In this document: piece by piece, positions 5,037-41,111 of the stretch | Layout: every line of letters starts with the position of its first letter | How positions within the stretch are numbered: position 1 is the first letter of the stretch | Program-made: the position numbers and the translations under genes | Origin: Eubacteriales bacterium | GTDB taxonomy: Bacteria > Bacillota > Clostridia > UBA1381 | Assembly (NCBI GenBank): GCA_018384175.1 | Contig: JAHAZB010000047.1 | Coordinates: 1-41,111, forward strand | Reading direction: 5' to 3' | DNA length: 41,111 nucleotides | The notes under the pieces: model-generated | Told to the model about the DNA's origin: nothing | The model's input: only the letters and a program-made list of their open reading frames with translations | Databases searched by the model: none

Positions 5037-6073
5037 AAATGACATTTCGCTGGTATGGCGAGGATGACAGTATAACACTTGATAAGATAAGGCAGATACC
5101 CTGTATAACAGGTGTTGTAACTGCTGTATACTCTACTCCCGTAGGCGAGGTATGGGCGCAGGAGGATATCGACAGATTAAAGGCACTTTCAAATGCGAAA
5201 GGTCTTGAAATGGAAGTTATCGAAAGCGTACCCGTACACGAGGATATCAAGCTAAGACGCGGCGATTATCAGCGCTACATAGATAACTACAAGGAGAATA
5301 TCAGACGTTTAGCAAAAGCAGGAGTTAAGTGTATCTGCTACAACTTTATGCCTGTATTCGACTGGACACGTTCTCGTCTTGACCAGCCGCTTCCCGACGG
5401 CTCAAACGCACTCGTTTACTACACCGAGGACGTTGGCAAGATGGACCCGACCAAGATGACTCTTCCCGGTTGGGACGCATCGTACACTCCTGATGAGATG
5501 AGCGGTCTTATTGACGAGTACAAGAAAATCGGCGAGGAAGGTTTATGGGCTAATCTTGAATATTTTATAAAGGAAATTATGCCCGTTGCCGTTGAGTGTG
5601 ATGTCAATATGGCAATACACCCCGATGATCCCCCCTGGTCAATCTTCGGTATTCCGAGAATTATAACAAACGAAGCAAATATCGACAGATTTTTGTCCCT
5701 TTATGATGACACCCATCACGGACTTACACTTTGTAGCGGTAGTCTTGGCTGTGCTAAGTTCAATGACTACACCGCAATGGTAAGAAAATACGGCAAAATG
5801 GGCAGAATCCACTTTGCACACGTCAGAAATATCAAAATTCTTGACGACGGTTCGTTTGAGGAAAGCGGACATTTCTCAGAGTGTGGCTCATTGGACGTTG
5901 TAGAGATTTTGAAGGCTTACCACGATTGCGGCTTTAAGGGTTATCTTCGTCCCGACCACGGCAGAATGATCTGGGGCGAAACAGGAAAACCCGGCTATGG
6001 TCTTTATGACAGAGCATTGGGTGCTATGTATATGGCAGGAATCTGGGAAACTCTTGATAAGATGAAAGGATAA
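5033..6073 (+). CDS. uxuA: Mannonate dehydratase
   Basis: Converts D-mannonate to 2-keto-3-deoxy-D-gluconate in glucuronate breakdown. The 346 residues cover the UxuA TIM barrel from MKMTFRWYG onward. Visible family motifs are YNFMPVFDWTRSRL, the metal-site segments HPDDPPW, CSGSLGC and HFAHVRN, and the C-terminal RPDHGR. These give the His, Cys, His and Asp set that holds the Mn/Fe ion. The ATG is inside the stop of the upstream remnant (ATGA) with aaggag 8 bases before it, and uxuB follows after 4 bases. Expected in the cytoplasm, with regulation by the divergent AraC protein likely. Confidence 0.97.
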   Translation: MKMTFRWYGEDDSITLDKIRQIPCITGVVTAVYSTPVGEVWAQEDIDRLKALSNAKGLEMEVIESVPVHEDIKLRRGDYQRYIDNYKENIRRLAKAGVKCICYNFMPVFDWTRSRLDQPLPDGSNALVYYTEDVGKMDPTKMTLPGWDASYTPDEMSGLIDEYKKIGEEGLWANLEYFIKEIMPVAVECDVNMAIHPDDPPWSIFGIPRIITNEANIDRFLSLYDDTHHGLTLCSGSLGCAKFNDYTAMVRKYGKMGRIHFAHVRNIKILDDGSFEESGHFSECGSLDVVEILKAYHDCGFKGYLRPDHGRMIWGETGKPGYGLYDRALGAMYMAGIWETLDKMKG

Positions 6074-6077
6074 TAAA

Positions 6078-6923
6078 ATGAAGTTACCATTTGAAATAGA
6101 TTTAAGCGGAAAGGTAGTTGTCGTAACAGGTGCAGGTGGAGTTTTATGCTCGATGTTTGCAGAAGCTATGGCAAAGACAGGTGCAAAGGTTGCACTTTTA
6201 GACCTTAACGGCGATGCTGCAAAGGAGTATGCAAATAAAATCAACGAAAACGGCGGTACTGCCAAAGGCTACACCTGCAATGTACTTGACAAGGACAGCT
6301 TAGAGAGTGTGCATAAAGAGGTAATAGCCGACTTCGGCACTTGCGATATCTTAATTAACGGTGCAGGCGGCAACAACCCGAAAGCAACTACCGACAACGA
6401 ATATTTCACCAAAGAGGCAATGGGAAATGTCAAGACATTCTTTGACCTTGACAAAGACGGAGTTGAGTTCGTATTTCACTTAAACTTCTTAGGAACACTT
6501 CTTCCCACGCAGGTATTTGCAGTTGATATGCTTGACAAGGAGGATGCAAGCATCATCAACATTTCGAGTATGAACGCATTTACACCGCTCACCAAAATCC
6601 CTGCATATTCAGGTGCAAAAGCGGCTATATCGAACTTTACACAGTGGCTCAGCGTACATTTTTCAAAGACAAACATCAGATGTAATGCAATCGCACCGGG
6701 CTTTTTCGTAACCAAGCAGAACGAAAAGCTGCTCTTTAACGAAGACGGAACACCGACACCGAGAACGGACAAGATACTAAACAGTACACCGATGGGACGT
6801 TTCGGCAAGGCAGAGGAGCTTATAGGCGCACTCTTGTTCCTTGTATCAAAGGATGCATCAAGCTTTGTAAACGGTGTTGTAATCCCCGTTGACGGCGGTT
6901 TCTCGGCATATAGCGGAGTGTGA
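6078..6923 (+). CDS. uxuB: SDR-type D-mannonate oxidoreductase (fructuronate reductase)
   Basis: Short-chain dehydrogenase of 281 residues that fits the Firmicutes-type UxuB/YjmF, which reduces D-fructuronate to D-mannonate, the UxuA substrate. Seen: the nucleotide-binding start VVVTGAGGVL, the NGAGGNNP loop, catalytic Ser in NISSMNAF, the YSGAKAA Tyr-Lys pair and the C-terminal VDGGFSAYSGV. The insertion EYFTKEAMGNVKTFFDLD is characteristic of this subfamily as far as I can judge. It starts 4 bases after uxuA and is followed by a strong terminator. The function rests on both sequence type and the neighbouring uxuA. Confidence 0.92.
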   Translation: MKLPFEIDLSGKVVVVTGAGGVLCSMFAEAMAKTGAKVALLDLNGDAAKEYANKINENGGTAKGYTCNVLDKDSLESVHKEVIADFGTCDILINGAGGNNPKATTDNEYFTKEAMGNVKTFFDLDKDGVEFVFHLNFLGTLLPTQVFAVDMLDKEDASIINISSMNAFTPLTKIPAYSGAKAAISNFTQWLSVHFSKTNIRCNAIAPGFFVTKQNEKLLFNEDGTPTPRTDKILNSTPMGRFGKAEELIGALLFLVSKDASSFVNGVVIPVDGGFSAYSGV

Positions 6924-38078: not shown

Positions 38079-38130
38079 CAGAGAAAATATTGTCCGCGAT
38101 ATTGGTCAGTGATTATATGGAGTGATAATT

Positions 38131-38658
38131 GTGGGAGAAAAAGAACATACCTGTTGTTTCTTTGGACACAGGATGATAGAAGTTACAGATGAATTGGTAA
38201 ATCGTCTGGAAAAAGTTGTTGATGATTTAATTGTAGAGAAAAAGGTTGATACATTTTTATTTGGCAGCAAGAGTCAGTTTGATAAATTATGTTTGCATGT
38301 TGTTACAGAGCTAAAAAAGAAATACCCACACATCAGACGAATCTATGTGAGGGCAGAGTTTCCTAATATTGATGAAGATTACACATCGTATCTTTTGAAA
38401 AGATATGACCATACTTATTATCCGGAACGGATGATTAATGCTAGGAAGGCGGTGTATGTTGAGCGTAATTACGAGATGATTGACAACAGCAGTTACTGTG
38501 TCATTTACTATGATGAAAACTATATGCCTCCCAGACGAAAGAATAGCAGACGGGATTTGTTCGATTATCAACCTAAAAGCGGAACTGCAGTTGCATATGA
38601 TTATGCAGTCAGAAAAGGAAAAAGCATAATAAATCTATGCACAAATGCATCAGAATAA
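38131..38658 (+). CDS. SLOG-fold protein (DUF1273-like)
   Basis: 175 residues. The start HTCCFFGHR, with Gly-His-Arg in a nucleotide-binding loop, DTFLFGSKSQFDKLCLHVVT and the end SGTAVAYDYAVRKGKSIINL are typical of the DUF1273/SLOG group, Rossmann-like proteins that bind nucleotide-related ligands and appear in mobile elements and conflict systems. GTG at 38131 is preferred over a GTG at 38122, since ggag at 38119-38122 is 8 bases before it. Probably the first gene of an operon with the HTH gene at 38683. Confidence 0.85.
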   Translation: MGEKEHTCCFFGHRMIEVTDELVNRLEKVVDDLIVEKKVDTFLFGSKSQFDKLCLHVVTELKKKYPHIRRIYVRAEFPNIDEDYTSYLLKRYDHTYYPERMINARKAVYVERNYEMIDNSSYCVIYYDENYMPPRRKNSRRDLFDYQPKSGTAVAYDYAVRKGKSIINLCTNASE

Positions 38659-38682: not shown

Positions 38683-39336
38683 TTGATAATGAACGCTTAC
38701 GATAAAAGTTATCTTGAAAAAGCTCAAACAACACTTGGTAGAATGTTTGACTTTGCTGTGTATGATTTAAAAGTTGACCTCAAGGAATTTTTTGATAGAT
38801 TTATTGTATCGGGAGTGGCATACAATTTTGGATATGGTGATTCGGCAACTATTGCCGGAAAATCAGGCGTTGAACTTGCCTATGAAGTTATGGAGAAAAC
38901 GGGAGAAAACGTAAGGAATATAAAACCTCGATATACTGTAAATCGTAGCGAAGAATACTGGACAGGATGGGCACTTGCGTATTATCAATGGAAAACGGCA
39001 ATTTCTTTTTCAAAGATCGTTGAGTATATGCCTATTAACGAAATAAAGGCATTGTATTCACCGTATCATGAAATGGACATAAGACATTTCGTAGATAAAA
39101 TGAATGAACTTTATATTAACGCAAAACCGGAAACTAATCTTAAAATATACAGAAAAAGAGCAGGCATTAGTCAAAAAGAGCTTGCGGAACAAGCAGATAT
39201 TCCTGTTCGCATGATTCAGCACTACGAACAAAGACAGAAAAATATTAATAAAGCGCAAGTGGAATGTCTCGCCAGACTTGCAAGAGTTTTAAACTGTAAT
39301 ATTGAAGAGTTGTTGGAATTGGTGGATATGAGATAA
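38683..39336 (+). CDS. Element protein with C-terminal XRE domain
   Basis: 217 residues. The N-terminal 140 residues belong to a family common in Lachnospiraceae mobile elements but without a name I can give: YLEKAQTTLGRMFDFAVYDL, then GKSGVELAYEVMEKTGE and EYWTGWALAYYQWKTAISF. The C-terminal 65 residues are a clear XRE helix-turn-helix (YRKRAGISQKELAEQADIPV, MIQHYEQRQKNINKAQ). TTG at 38683 has agagga 6 bases upstream; ATG two codons later is the alternative. Probably a DNA-binding regulator of the element. Confidence 0.82.
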   Translation: MIMNAYDKSYLEKAQTTLGRMFDFAVYDLKVDLKEFFDRFIVSGVAYNFGYGDSATIAGKSGVELAYEVMEKTGENVRNIKPRYTVNRSEEYWTGWALAYYQWKTAISFSKIVEYMPINEIKALYSPYHEMDIRHFVDKMNELYINAKPETNLKIYRKRAGISQKELAEQADIPVRMIQHYEQRQKNINKAQVECLARLARVLNCNIEELLELVDMR

Positions 39337-39369
39337 GGGAAGATGTGTCAAATTGGTATGCAATCTAGT

Positions 39370-39422
39370 GGGTGAGTGTTCGGTAACGATTGGGTAACAC
39401 TTGGGTGCGTGTTCGGTAATGA
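39370..39422. repeat. Pair of 20-base direct repeats
   Basis: GGGTGAGTGTTCGGTAACGA (39370-39389) and GGGTGCGTGTTCGGTAATGA (39403-39422) differ at two positions, with a partial third copy (TGGGTAACACTTGGG) between. Offset is 33 bases, three helical turns. It lies just upstream of the promoter array. Such spacing would suit protein binding, for example an iteron-like or operator site. Confidence 0.6.
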
Positions 39423-39441
39423 AAAAGTAAGGGTTCAGGGA

Positions 39442-39488
39442 TTGAAAGGTGAATTTATTCATGTTATAATTGTAATGTGAAAAATTAA
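39442..39488 (+). promoter_or_regulatory. Array unit 1: TTGAAA-17-TATAAT, GTG-start triplet
   Basis: TTGAAA 39442-39447, TATAAT 39465-39470, then TGTAAT and GTG at 39477. The frame is only three codons (M K N) before TAA. TTCAGGG precedes the -35, as in unit 5. Confidence 0.75.
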
Positions 39489-39597
39489 GTTTTTCTGAAA
39501 AGCTCCAGTGGTTTTGACACAAATAGTTAGTGAAAATGACACTAAAATGACACTAAAATGACACTAAGATTCCAGAAAAATTCCAGAAGAATTGCCA

Positions 39598-39698
39598 TTG
39601 AAAGTATATTTTCTATGTGTTATAATGTTAGTGTGAAGGATTGCAAACAACCTTCAATGCCTTGCTACAACAGGATTCCTATGGTTTATGAACTTTAA
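39598..39698 (+). promoter_or_regulatory. Array unit 2: TTGAAA-17-TATAAT with 21-codon frame
   Basis: TTGAAA 39598-39603, TATAAT 39621-39626, six bases, then GTG at 39633. The frame encodes 21 residues (MKDCKQPSMPCYNRIPMVYE and Leu) and ends with TAA at 39698. No Shine-Dalgarno site is present. Confidence 0.75.
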
Positions 39699-39804
39699 AA
39701 AATAAAGGATTTGGGAAACAGTTTCGAAACAAAAAGGGAATAAAAAAGGCATAAAACGAAATTTATGTGAAATTTATAAGGGACAAAAAGAAATTTATAA
39801 GGGA

Positions 39805-39914
39805 TTGAAACGAAATTTTTAATGTGTTATAATGCTAGTATGAAAATTTGTATTTTTGCAATGAAATTAATTTGGAATTATGATGAAACTGATTTGGAAC
39901 TAAATTGGTATTAA
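39805..39914 (+). promoter_or_regulatory. Array unit 3: TTGAAA-17-TATAAT with 24-codon frame
   Basis: TTGAAA 39805-39810, TATAAT 39828-39833, GCTAGT, then ATG at 39840. The frame encodes 24 residues, starting MKICIFAMKLIWNYDE, and ends at 39914. No ribosome site. Confidence 0.75.
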
Positions 39915-39932
39915 ATTGGAATTGATCTGGTA

Positions 39933-40003
39933 TTGAAGTGAAATTATTAATGTGATATAATGGTATCGTGAAAATGTATACTAAAAGTACATTGGAACGA
40001 TGA
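39933..40003 (+). promoter_or_regulatory. Array unit 4: TTGAAG-17-TATAAT with 11-codon frame
   Basis: TTGAAG 39933-39938, TATAAT 39956-39961, GGTATC, then GTG at 39968. Encodes MKMYTKSTLER and TGA at 40003. Confidence 0.75.
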
Positions 40004-40046
40004 CACAATTTCAATGAAAACATACTAAAAAGAAACTGTTCAGGGG

Positions 40047-40075
40047 TTTTAAGTATATTATGAACATGTTATAAT
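40047..40075 (+). promoter_or_regulatory. Array unit 5: extended -10 promoter
   Basis: TATAAT at 40070-40075 with TG one base upstream; the -35 position reads TTTTAA and is weak. ATG follows at 40082 after GCTAAT. This unit feeds the frame with two embedded terminators. Confidence 0.7.
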
Positions 40076-40081
40076 GCTAAT

Positions 40082-40270
40082 ATGAAAAATAATTGTATGC
40101 AGCGCTTACGGAAGCTTATCACGATGGTGATCAGGCTTCTTTTTTATTATATAAAAGAAGAGAAAAATTTAATGTTGCTTTTTGAGAAGCTTATCGTTTT
40201 GACGGTCAGCTTCTTTTTTTATACTCAAAATCTGAAAGGAGGAAGTCGATGTGTAGAAAAAGATGAGTAA
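40082..40270 (+). CDS. Possible leader peptide with embedded attenuators
   Basis: A 62-codon frame beginning MKNNCMQRLRKLITMVIRLL at the sixth base after the unit-5 TATAAT, basic and hydrophobic. Two intrinsic terminators of similar sequence lie inside it (40111-40145 and 40186-40220). That is not expected inside an ordinary gene and fits a leader whose translation decides read-through. It could also be only a non-coding leader. The frame ends 66 bases before the next gene's ATG. Confidence 0.4.
   Translation: MKNNCMQRLRKLITMVIRLLFYYIKEEKNLMLLFEKLIVLTVSFFFYTQNLKGGSRCVEKDE
40111..40145 (+). terminator. First attenuator-like terminator
   Basis: GAAGC...TCAC (40111-40122) and GTGA...GCTTC (40127-40139) pair around GATG with a small internal loop; T6 follows. 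It begins with GAAGCTTATC, as does the second copy. Confidence 0.75.
40186..40220 (+). terminator. Second attenuator-like terminator
   Basis: GAAGCT (40186-40191) pairs with AGCTTC (40208-40213), with inner ATCGT / ACGGT pairs and loop TTTG; T7 follows. It resembles the first terminator closely enough to suggest duplication. Confidence 0.75.
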
Positions 40271-40336: not shown

Positions 40337-40690
40337 ATGAAAAACGCAGTTATTTATTTAGTAAACAAAAATGTAAATTCTCTTGCAGAAGAAGAAAGAG
40401 AAATTAGAACACACGCGGAAAAGATTCCCGATGTAAGAATCACTGATATTTATATTGAGGAAAAATCAGTGGATTGTAAGCAACTGGTTACGCAACTTTG
40501 CGAGAAGATTGACAAAGGCGAGGTTCAGATGATTCTTACAAATAGTTTTGCTTTTGGCGGAAGGATAAGCGTTGGACCTCTTGCCAATAAAATTCACGAA
40601 AAAGATATTGATATATTAGTAGGAAGCAGATTTCCGTTTGTGAATAATACTGGGGAGAATTTGAGCGGCATTAAAGAATTCGAACTGTAA
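40337..40690 (+). CDS. Small protein resembling a recombinase catalytic domain without its serine
   Basis: 117 residues. NAVIYLVNKN, EEREIRTHAEKIPDVRITDI and KIDKGEVQMILTNSFAFGGR follow the strand-helix order of a serine-recombinase N-terminal domain (compare VAIYCRLS at 40963). The position of the nucleophile Ser is occupied by Asn/Lys, so it cannot cut DNA in that way. This likeness is by eye and weak. Start ATG 40337 has aaggag about 12 bases upstream, slightly far. It lies downstream of the attenuator pair and is the first normal gene that the promoter array could serve. Confidence 0.65.
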   Translation: MKNAVIYLVNKNVNSLAEEEREIRTHAEKIPDVRITDIYIEEKSVDCKQLVTQLCEKIDKGEVQMILTNSFAFGGRISVGPLANKIHEKDIDILVGSRFPFVNNTGENLSGIKEFEL

Positions 40691-40754: not shown

Positions 40755-40892
40755 ATGGACAAAAAGAAAACTCAACAAGATTATCTTAAGAACAAATTCA
40801 AAAGTGGCGACTGTCCTGACAAAACTCAGTTCTCCGAAAAGTGGGTTGAACTGATTAACAGGCAGGAGAAAGCCAAGGCTGCAAAAAGGTAG
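40755..40892 (+). CDS. Small hypothetical protein before the recombinase
   Basis: 45 residues, very basic and helical: KKKTQQDYLKNKFKSGDCPD, then KTQFSEKWVELINRQEKAKA. An aaaggagg site lies 8 bases before the ATG. It is followed after 67 bases by the serine recombinase, whose -35 box overlaps its stop. Small basic proteins next to large serine recombinases can act as directionality factors; nothing in the sequence proves that here. Confidence 0.7.
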   Translation: MDKKKTQQDYLKNKFKSGDCPDKTQFSEKWVELINRQEKAKAAKR

Positions 40893-40918
40893 ACATGAAG
40901 AGCATTTTATGGTATAAT
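40890..40918 (+). promoter_or_regulatory. Promoter of the serine recombinase gene
   Basis: TAGACA, 17 bases, TATAAT, with the recombinase ATG 41 bases after the -10 and aaggagag between. It lacks the six-base RTG arrangement of the array. Confidence 0.75.
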
Positions 40919-40959: not shown

Positions 40960-41111
40960 ATGGCAAAAGTAGCAATTTATTGCCGCTTATCTGAAGAAGA
41001 CAAGGACAAACTGAACAAAACTGACGATTCTAATAGTATTCAGAATCAAAAATCAATGCTTTTGCAGTATGCTATGCAACAGGGGTGGGAAGTTTATAAC
41101 ATTTACAGCGA
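40960..41111 (+). CDS. Large serine recombinase, N-terminal part only
   Basis: The gene runs off the window edge after 50 codons. KVAIYCRLSEEDKDKLNK holds the catalytic Ser of the YxRxS motif, and DSNSIQNQKSMLLQYAMQQG is the typical second segment of resolvase/invertase-family catalytic domains, as in large recombinases of Clostridial integrative elements. It probably integrates and excises the accessory region or an element that begins to the right. C-terminal domains not visible, so the subtype is open. Confidence 0.93.
   Translation, partial: MAKVAIYCRLSEEDKDKLNKTDDSNSIQNQKSMLLQYAMQQGWEVYNIYS

Follow-up and report, generated by a model that had tools for sequence, protein, structure and literature searches.

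Five promoters stand in tandem upstream of a serine recombinase gene in this Eubacteriales bacterium, and the DNA between them is built of 11-bp direct repeats that keep a common register to the −10 boxes. Taken singly, such a unit of direct repeats, extended −10 element and hairpin is the known Gram-positive phage late-promoter type under Ltr/ArpU/Alt activators. The promoter class is thus known, and what is new is its tandem, orphan and multi-word arrangement. The array most likely consists of promoters that would answer in trans when phages, invading or resident, supply their late activators, a reading to which we give about an even chance.

Five Promoter Units on One Strand

The window, i.e. 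the whole 41,111-nt stretch of DNA analyzed, is the entire contig C82 of a 1.98-Mb genome in 150 contigs that is 88% complete. Five units of the form TGN-TATAAT-N6-RTGAAR lie on its forward strand between the end of a gene for an XRE protein (39336) and two terminator-like hairpins. P1 (39442–39482) has TTGAAA at 39442–39447, TATAAT at 39465–39470, and GTGAAA from the expected +1 at 39477–39482. The corresponding elements of P2 (39598–39638) are TTGAAA at 39598–39603, TATAAT at 39621–39626, and GTGAAG at 39633–39638; those of P3 (39805–39845) are TTGAAA at 39805–39810, TATAAT at 39828–39833, and ATGAAA at 39840–39845; and those of P4 (39933–39973) are TTGAAG at 39933–39938, TATAAT at 39956–39961, and GTGAAA at 39968–39973. 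In P5 (40047–40087), with TATAAT at 40070–40075 and ATGAAA at 40082–40087, the weak −35 sequence TTTTAA takes the place that TTGAAA or TTGAAG occupies 17 bp upstream in P1–P4. The preliminary description had reported the five units, each with a Lys codon after RTG, and the four −35 boxes, and all were found as described.

Of the eight TATAATN6RTGAAR sites in the 1.98-Mb genome, five fall within 623 bp on one strand. Dinucleotide shuffles of 39337–40110 yielded a mean of 0.006 such sites per region, against the five observed. The conserved unit begins upstream of the −35 box, extends past +6, and covers ∼68 bp, over which the copies are 65–75% identical to that of P3. This supports the earlier view that it is the promoter unit that is conserved and not a simple repeat.

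The first hairpin (40110–40145, forward strand; −15.8 kcal/mol by terminator scan and folding) has a T tract and lies ∼30 nt into the P5 transcript. The second (40186–40221, forward strand; −14.5 kcal/mol by folding) is a near-copy of the first. P5 alone has such a hairpin shortly downstream; P1–P4 lack the hairpin that follows the phage units described below. Rfam gave no match at the gathering score for the array locus or for five phage loci, and neither plasmids nor phages matched the 971-bp region in BLASTN. Weak BLAST matches within the family proved unrelated; they comprised AT-rich DNA, a hairpin of similar appearance, and an ordinary −10 box in front of another recombinase.

Genes around the Array

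The genes nearest the array are on the forward strand. Upstream are those for a SLOG (YpsA-like) protein (38122–38658; PF06908, E 1.6e-6) and for a 217-residue protein with a C-terminal XRE HTH (38683–39336), the N-terminal 140 residues of which match PADLOC PDC-M42B, a candidate defense entry, at E 1.1e-9. Downstream is a gene for a 117-residue protein (40337–40690) with no significant Pfam or PHROG match, followed by one for a 45-residue protein (40755–40892) of no assigned family in Pfam and PHROG searches, and by the N-terminal part of a large serine recombinase (40960–41111; PF00239, PF07508; CcrB/XisF-like). A promoter-like site separate from the array, TAGACA-17-TATAAT (40890–40918, forward strand), precedes the recombinase. 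Neither to the left of the recombinase nor near the array was any gene for phage structure or packaging recognized.

The contig ends inside the recombinase gene. Contig C106 begins with an exact 127-bp overlap, the sole basis of the join, and completes the gene, beyond which it carries a cotJC-like gene and then gatB. The nearest relatives of the recombinase in the plasmid and phage collections (61% in Subdoligranulum) and one in a viral contig (49%) have no array upstream. No empty site was discernible through gatB synteny, the gene order being different in relatives. The structural model of the 117-residue protein (pLDDT 58) was too poor to use, and its Foldseek matches were not specific. 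Relatives of this protein were absent from viral contigs, genome contigs, plasmids, and phages; the class held five weak matches. Between the second terminator and the 117-residue protein gene, a Shine-Dalgarno-like AAAGGAGG is followed by a 5-codon frame, MCRKR (40249–40266), possibly a leader peptide.

Repeats of 11 bp between the Promoters

The preliminary description held that the DNA between the promoters is not conserved. This is correct as to sequence, but the intervening DNA consists of 11-bp direct-repeat arrays, with a periodicity over lags 11, 22, and 33 of z = 11.0 in 39337–40110. All arrays are on the forward strand. Array A1 of P1 (39369–39437; z 6.9) has the word TSGGTAANNNT, with a TRF period of 11 at 39382 and register blocks. 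In A2 of P2 (39533–39597; z 6.9) ATGACACTAAA occurs three times and is followed by two copies of ATTCCAGAARA, again with a TRF period of 11. A3 of P3 (39729–39804) is weak (z 2.3), with degenerate 10/11-bp words (GAAATTTATAA/AAGGGA), a TRF match at 39731, and D4 and D6 repeats. A4 of P4 (39860–39932; z 7.8) has the word NTTGGWATTAA, TRF matches at 39894 and 39906, and register blocks, and A5 of P5 (39974–40046; z 3.8) has degenerate, NNATACTAA-like 11-bp repeats and register blocks.

When 11-mers were cut from 8 nt before each TATAAT, a common repeat register was seen for all five −10 boxes. Direct repeats of about one helical turn in fixed register to the −10 box are clear at P1, P2, and P4 and weak at P3 and P5. 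The repeat words differ among the promoters, again most clearly at P1, P2, and P4 and less clearly at P3 and P5. Identity among the 11-mers within A1–A5 is 0.42, 0.46, 0.32, 0.58, and 0.47, respectively, as against 0.27–0.33 in shuffles; the value for A3 is not above its own shuffles. Identity between arrays is mostly at background, with the exceptions of P1–P4 and P4–P5. These between-array identities suggest that at least the P2 word is distinct, and the words of P1, P4, and P5 may be partly related; we do not claim five separate specificities as proven.

Other identities for the repeats were considered and rejected. No parM or parR gene was recognized next to the array, as would go with a parC centromere of ParR/ParM partition, and PhoB-type boxes were likewise discarded. 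Tyrosine-integrase arm sites were rejected since no tyrosine integrase was seen at the array, although such repeats adjoin integrases elsewhere (L244, L236). In contig L244 (7173), where the gene was checked, and in related contigs L238, L243, L245, L246, and L249, TGGGTAAAAGT 11-bp repeats lie directly 3′ of a tyrosine-integrase gene and are probably arm-type integrase sites. Long 11-bp direct-repeat arrays with several words in one register (TCGGTAACTGT, TTCGCAACTGT, and TTCACAGCTGT; TTGGAATTGAC and TTTGCGACCAC) also occur in viral contigs L241, L242, and L235, and P1- and P4-type words were met in other settings.

The number of binding-site-like units and the want of a clear gene product between them would suit a decoy array for a regulator, as the preliminary description had suggested. 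In such a reading, some 30–40 repeat units would soak up a phage late activator, the terS promoter would be under-activated, and packaging would fail, with the promoters incidental. The terminators that close the array are compatible with such a role, and the PDC-M42B-like neighbor hints at a defense setting. However, the whole core promoter from −35 to +6, which a decoy would not need, is kept in all five units, and different words would dilute the titration of any one activator. Titration is still a live rival, although we consider it quite unlikely.

RTG at the Expected Transcription Start

The frames that begin at the RTG of P1–P5 are of 3, 21, 24, 11, and 62 codons, as had been stated in the preliminary description, which listed a family of tiny leaderless peptides or RNAs among several possibilities. 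The placement of RTG at the expected transcription start agrees with leaderless peptides. Against it, the five frames have nothing in common beyond V/M-K, and the 62-codon frame of P5 passes through both terminators. Moreover, the RTG at +1 is shared by 13 units of phage or prophage type, whose frames run to 2–32 codons with no peptide common to unrelated loci, and no conserved reading frame was found behind the RTG in P1–P5 and these 13 units. Leaderless peptides are hardly credible on these grounds. Because the 13 units share no common peptide, RTGAA at +1 is better read as a conserved initially transcribed sequence than as a start codon.

The Same Unit in Phages and Prophages

No cluster comparable to the array was present among the matches listed for TGNTATAATN6RTGAAR in 398 genomes of the phylum or for the looser RTGNTATAATN6RTGA in 95 genomes of the order. 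The strict pattern did recover prophage sites in one genus (L164, L165, and L169), where TGTCC repeats ∼11 bp apart abut TGTGYTATAAT and are followed by RTGAAA and then a hairpin. The L169 site is flanked by a PHROG 36 gene (E 2.5e-14) on one side and a terminase-small-subunit-like gene (weak matches only) on the other, and the layout is the same in prophage units L165 and L169 and in viral L172–L174. Two more copies of the late-promoter unit, at 6668 and 7009 of L164, precede a tail-sheath gene; they are 341 bp apart, and their repeats are identical.

When one genome each of ∼85,000 species was scanned for exact matches to TRTGNTATAATGNTARTRTGAAA, the −10/+1 pattern of the window, 27 were obtained. 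A PHROG 36 gene (E 8.5e-18 to 5.8e-25) lies directly 5′ of at least five of the 27 (L190, L193, L204, L207, and L212). Two of these five, L207 and L212, are directly before terS (E 2.4e-47 and 6.7e-37, respectively). Other matches resemble leaderless genes of the ordinary kind, among them several from Saccharibacteria. The extended −10 (TG-N-TATAAT) and the +1 region of the PHROG 36-linked units are both present in the units of the array.

Of the words in the array, that of P2 (RTGACACTAAM) alone was matched at a late promoter of a phage with orientation and register preserved. In phage contigs L214 and L217, a PHROG 36 gene (E 3.5e-17) is followed by the repeat run TTGACACTAAC ATGACACTAAA GTGACACTAAC ATGACACTGAT ATGCCACTGAA GTGACACTAAT, 8 nt, TATAAT, a hairpin, a small gene, and a packaging gene that resembles terS of L252. 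The search of viral contigs that retrieved L214 and L217 selected for the word and its spacing and not for the register to the −10 box or the neighboring genes. From the PHROG 36 and terS neighbors of the same pattern, together with the P2 word in L214/L217, we assign the units of the array to the Ltr-type phage late promoters.

In the class, 30 PHROG 36 loci together show an excess of 10-bp direct repeats immediately 3′ of the gene (z 8.4 at lag 10 and 1.6 at lag 11). By folding, 19 of the 30 loci have a terminator-like hairpin at or below −12 kcal/mol within 220 nt after the PHROG 36 gene, as against 18 of 240 control windows. The position of these hairpins (L288–L317), directly after the late promoter in the first 220 nt past the gene, raises the possibility that antitermination of the lambda Q kind may also control these late operons; a Q-like PHROG is weakly matched by some members as well. 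By eye, the phage units inspected do not have good −35 boxes, whereas P1–P4 do.

The near-consensus promoters of P1–P4 and the HTH gene that ends directly upstream could also be accommodated by local autoregulation, in which an island protein such as the 217-residue XRE protein would bind the repeats and repress five sigma-A promoters driving the recombinase operon. XRE (Cro/C1-type) proteins usually bind inverted repeats, and the runs found here are long 11-bp direct repeats. One protein would not account for the different words, and the same unit occurs elsewhere directly 3′ of PHROG 36 genes. We judge such control by a local protein to be very unlikely.

A prophage locus (L297; G668:C97, reverse-complement 2040–2320) has three tandem, near-identical late promoters with a period of ∼100 bp and one terminator. 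It shows that duplication of such promoters happens, and the array might accordingly be a relic: a single late promoter, remaining from a prophage or mobile element, would have been duplicated in tandem, and its repeat arrays would have drifted with no present function. The degenerate state of A3 and A5 fits decayed copies of one control region, as had been proposed, and this idea too is still a live rival. It is at odds with the −10 box, the N6 spacing, and the RTGAAR that are intact in all five units though the intervening sequence has diverged, which suggests selection, and with the fact that no phage gene is left nearby. A relic is in our estimation unlikely.

Possible Activation in trans

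From the sequence we infer activator binding, a response to phages, and an effect on the recombinase genes. Each run of 11-bp repeats, set at a constant phase relative to its extended −10 box, would be a putative binding array for a phage late activator of the PHROG 36 type, and activators of invading or resident phages would act in trans on these orphan late-type promoters. The array would be able to answer to more than one phage by virtue of its different repeat words, which are clearest at P1, P2, and P4. The transcripts would meet the two terminator-like hairpins just before the 117-residue protein, 45-residue protein, and serine recombinase genes; read-through would raise expression of these genes late in infection, and without it short leader RNAs would be made. 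In a more specific form, which we hold to be doubtful, the array would be a multi-input phage sensor made of late-promoter mimics, each with its own activator word, so that infection by any of several unrelated phages would cause transcription toward the recombinase genes at a late stage.

Activation in trans is favored by the periodicity and common register of the repeats, the PHROG 36 neighbors of the unit elsewhere, L214/L217, the literature on Ltr, the tandem late promoters of prophage L297, and the orphan multi-word units L200 and L213 described below. Several findings weigh against it. The good −35 boxes of P1–P4 mean that these could be constitutive promoters. A phage late promoter matched the word of P2 only, A3 and A5 are degenerate, and P1–P4 have no hairpin. 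The genome holds no PHROG 36 gene at E ≤ 1e-12 (the assembly being 88% complete), and the recombinase has a promoter-like site of its own and relatives without an array. On sequence alone, a trans-activated array would hardly differ from a decoy or a relic.

If the array does answer phage late activators, it would be a DNA-level record of the phages met by the host lineage and a ready test system, in which the repeat words could be paired one by one with phage activators for assay. The loci compared here also give a simple handle on the DNA targets of the PHROG 36 family, which is large: immediately past the activator gene stand 10/11-bp direct repeats, an extended −10 box, and a terminator-like hairpin.

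Comparison with Known Systems

Ltr activators work through direct repeats that precede the late promoter; four repeats within −76 to −32 serve TP901-1 Alt, and in phi13 deletion of the repeats abolishes P23 (PMC13123087). The array resembles this group (phi13 P23/Ltr, TP901-1 Alt, RinA and ArpU relatives; PHROG 36/248) in having direct repeats upstream of an extended −10 box, and its 11-bp spacing fits the four repeats of TP901-1. The initially transcribed RTGAA is shared with the late promoters of L169, L204, and L207, the hairpin after P5 with Ltr-type late promoters, and the P2 word and register with phage L214. The array differs in its five tandem units, its different words, the −35 boxes of P1–P4, and its placement before a serine recombinase operon. 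It also has no activator gene directly upstream, where the nearest gene is that of the XRE protein, and no terS or late phage genes downstream, where the 117-residue protein, 45-residue protein, and serine recombinase genes are found instead. The preliminary description knew of no system with this layout. This does not hold for the single unit, which is of a known type, but five such units in tandem, orphaned, and with different repeat words appear to be without match among known systems.

The closest arrangements are partial ones. The G668 prophage likewise has tandem PHROG 36-linked late promoter copies that end in one terminator, but its three copies are near identical, with an activator gene before and HNH and terS genes after, whereas the array has five diverged orphan copies. 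In Bacillota RGIG7065, L213 (JAFYGI010000051.1, reverse-complement 6000–6530) is an orphan late-type promoter with TTGAAAAACG five times, a terminator, GGGCAGTTCAA five times, and GGGCAAACGAA six times, and L200 (4500–4660) shares this core promoter and carries two further words. Both loci are like the array in combining a late-type promoter with 10/11-bp repeats, in having two or three words per intergenic stretch, and in the absence of an adjacent PHROG 36 or terS gene. Unlike the array, they have one promoter per locus and not five, and no recombinase was seen adjoining.

Integrated elements that respond to a helper offer a further parallel. As a candidate satellite or helper-activated island (P4-, PICI-, or SGI1-like), the locus has a serine recombinase and chromosomal genes on both sides; no packaging, capsid-interference, or replication genes were recognized in the stretch. 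P4 listens to the helper activator P2 Ogr. SGI1 answers to IncC AcaCD, and its excision is timed in this way (PMC7826253). Under the proposed mechanism the array would be similar, with promoters in an integrated element answering to an activator in trans, but the activator class, the host, and the recombinase differ, and the helper and response are here putative. If the mechanism is correct, the listening to helper activators known from P4/Ogr and SGI1/AcaCD would be extended to several phages at once in Firmicutes.
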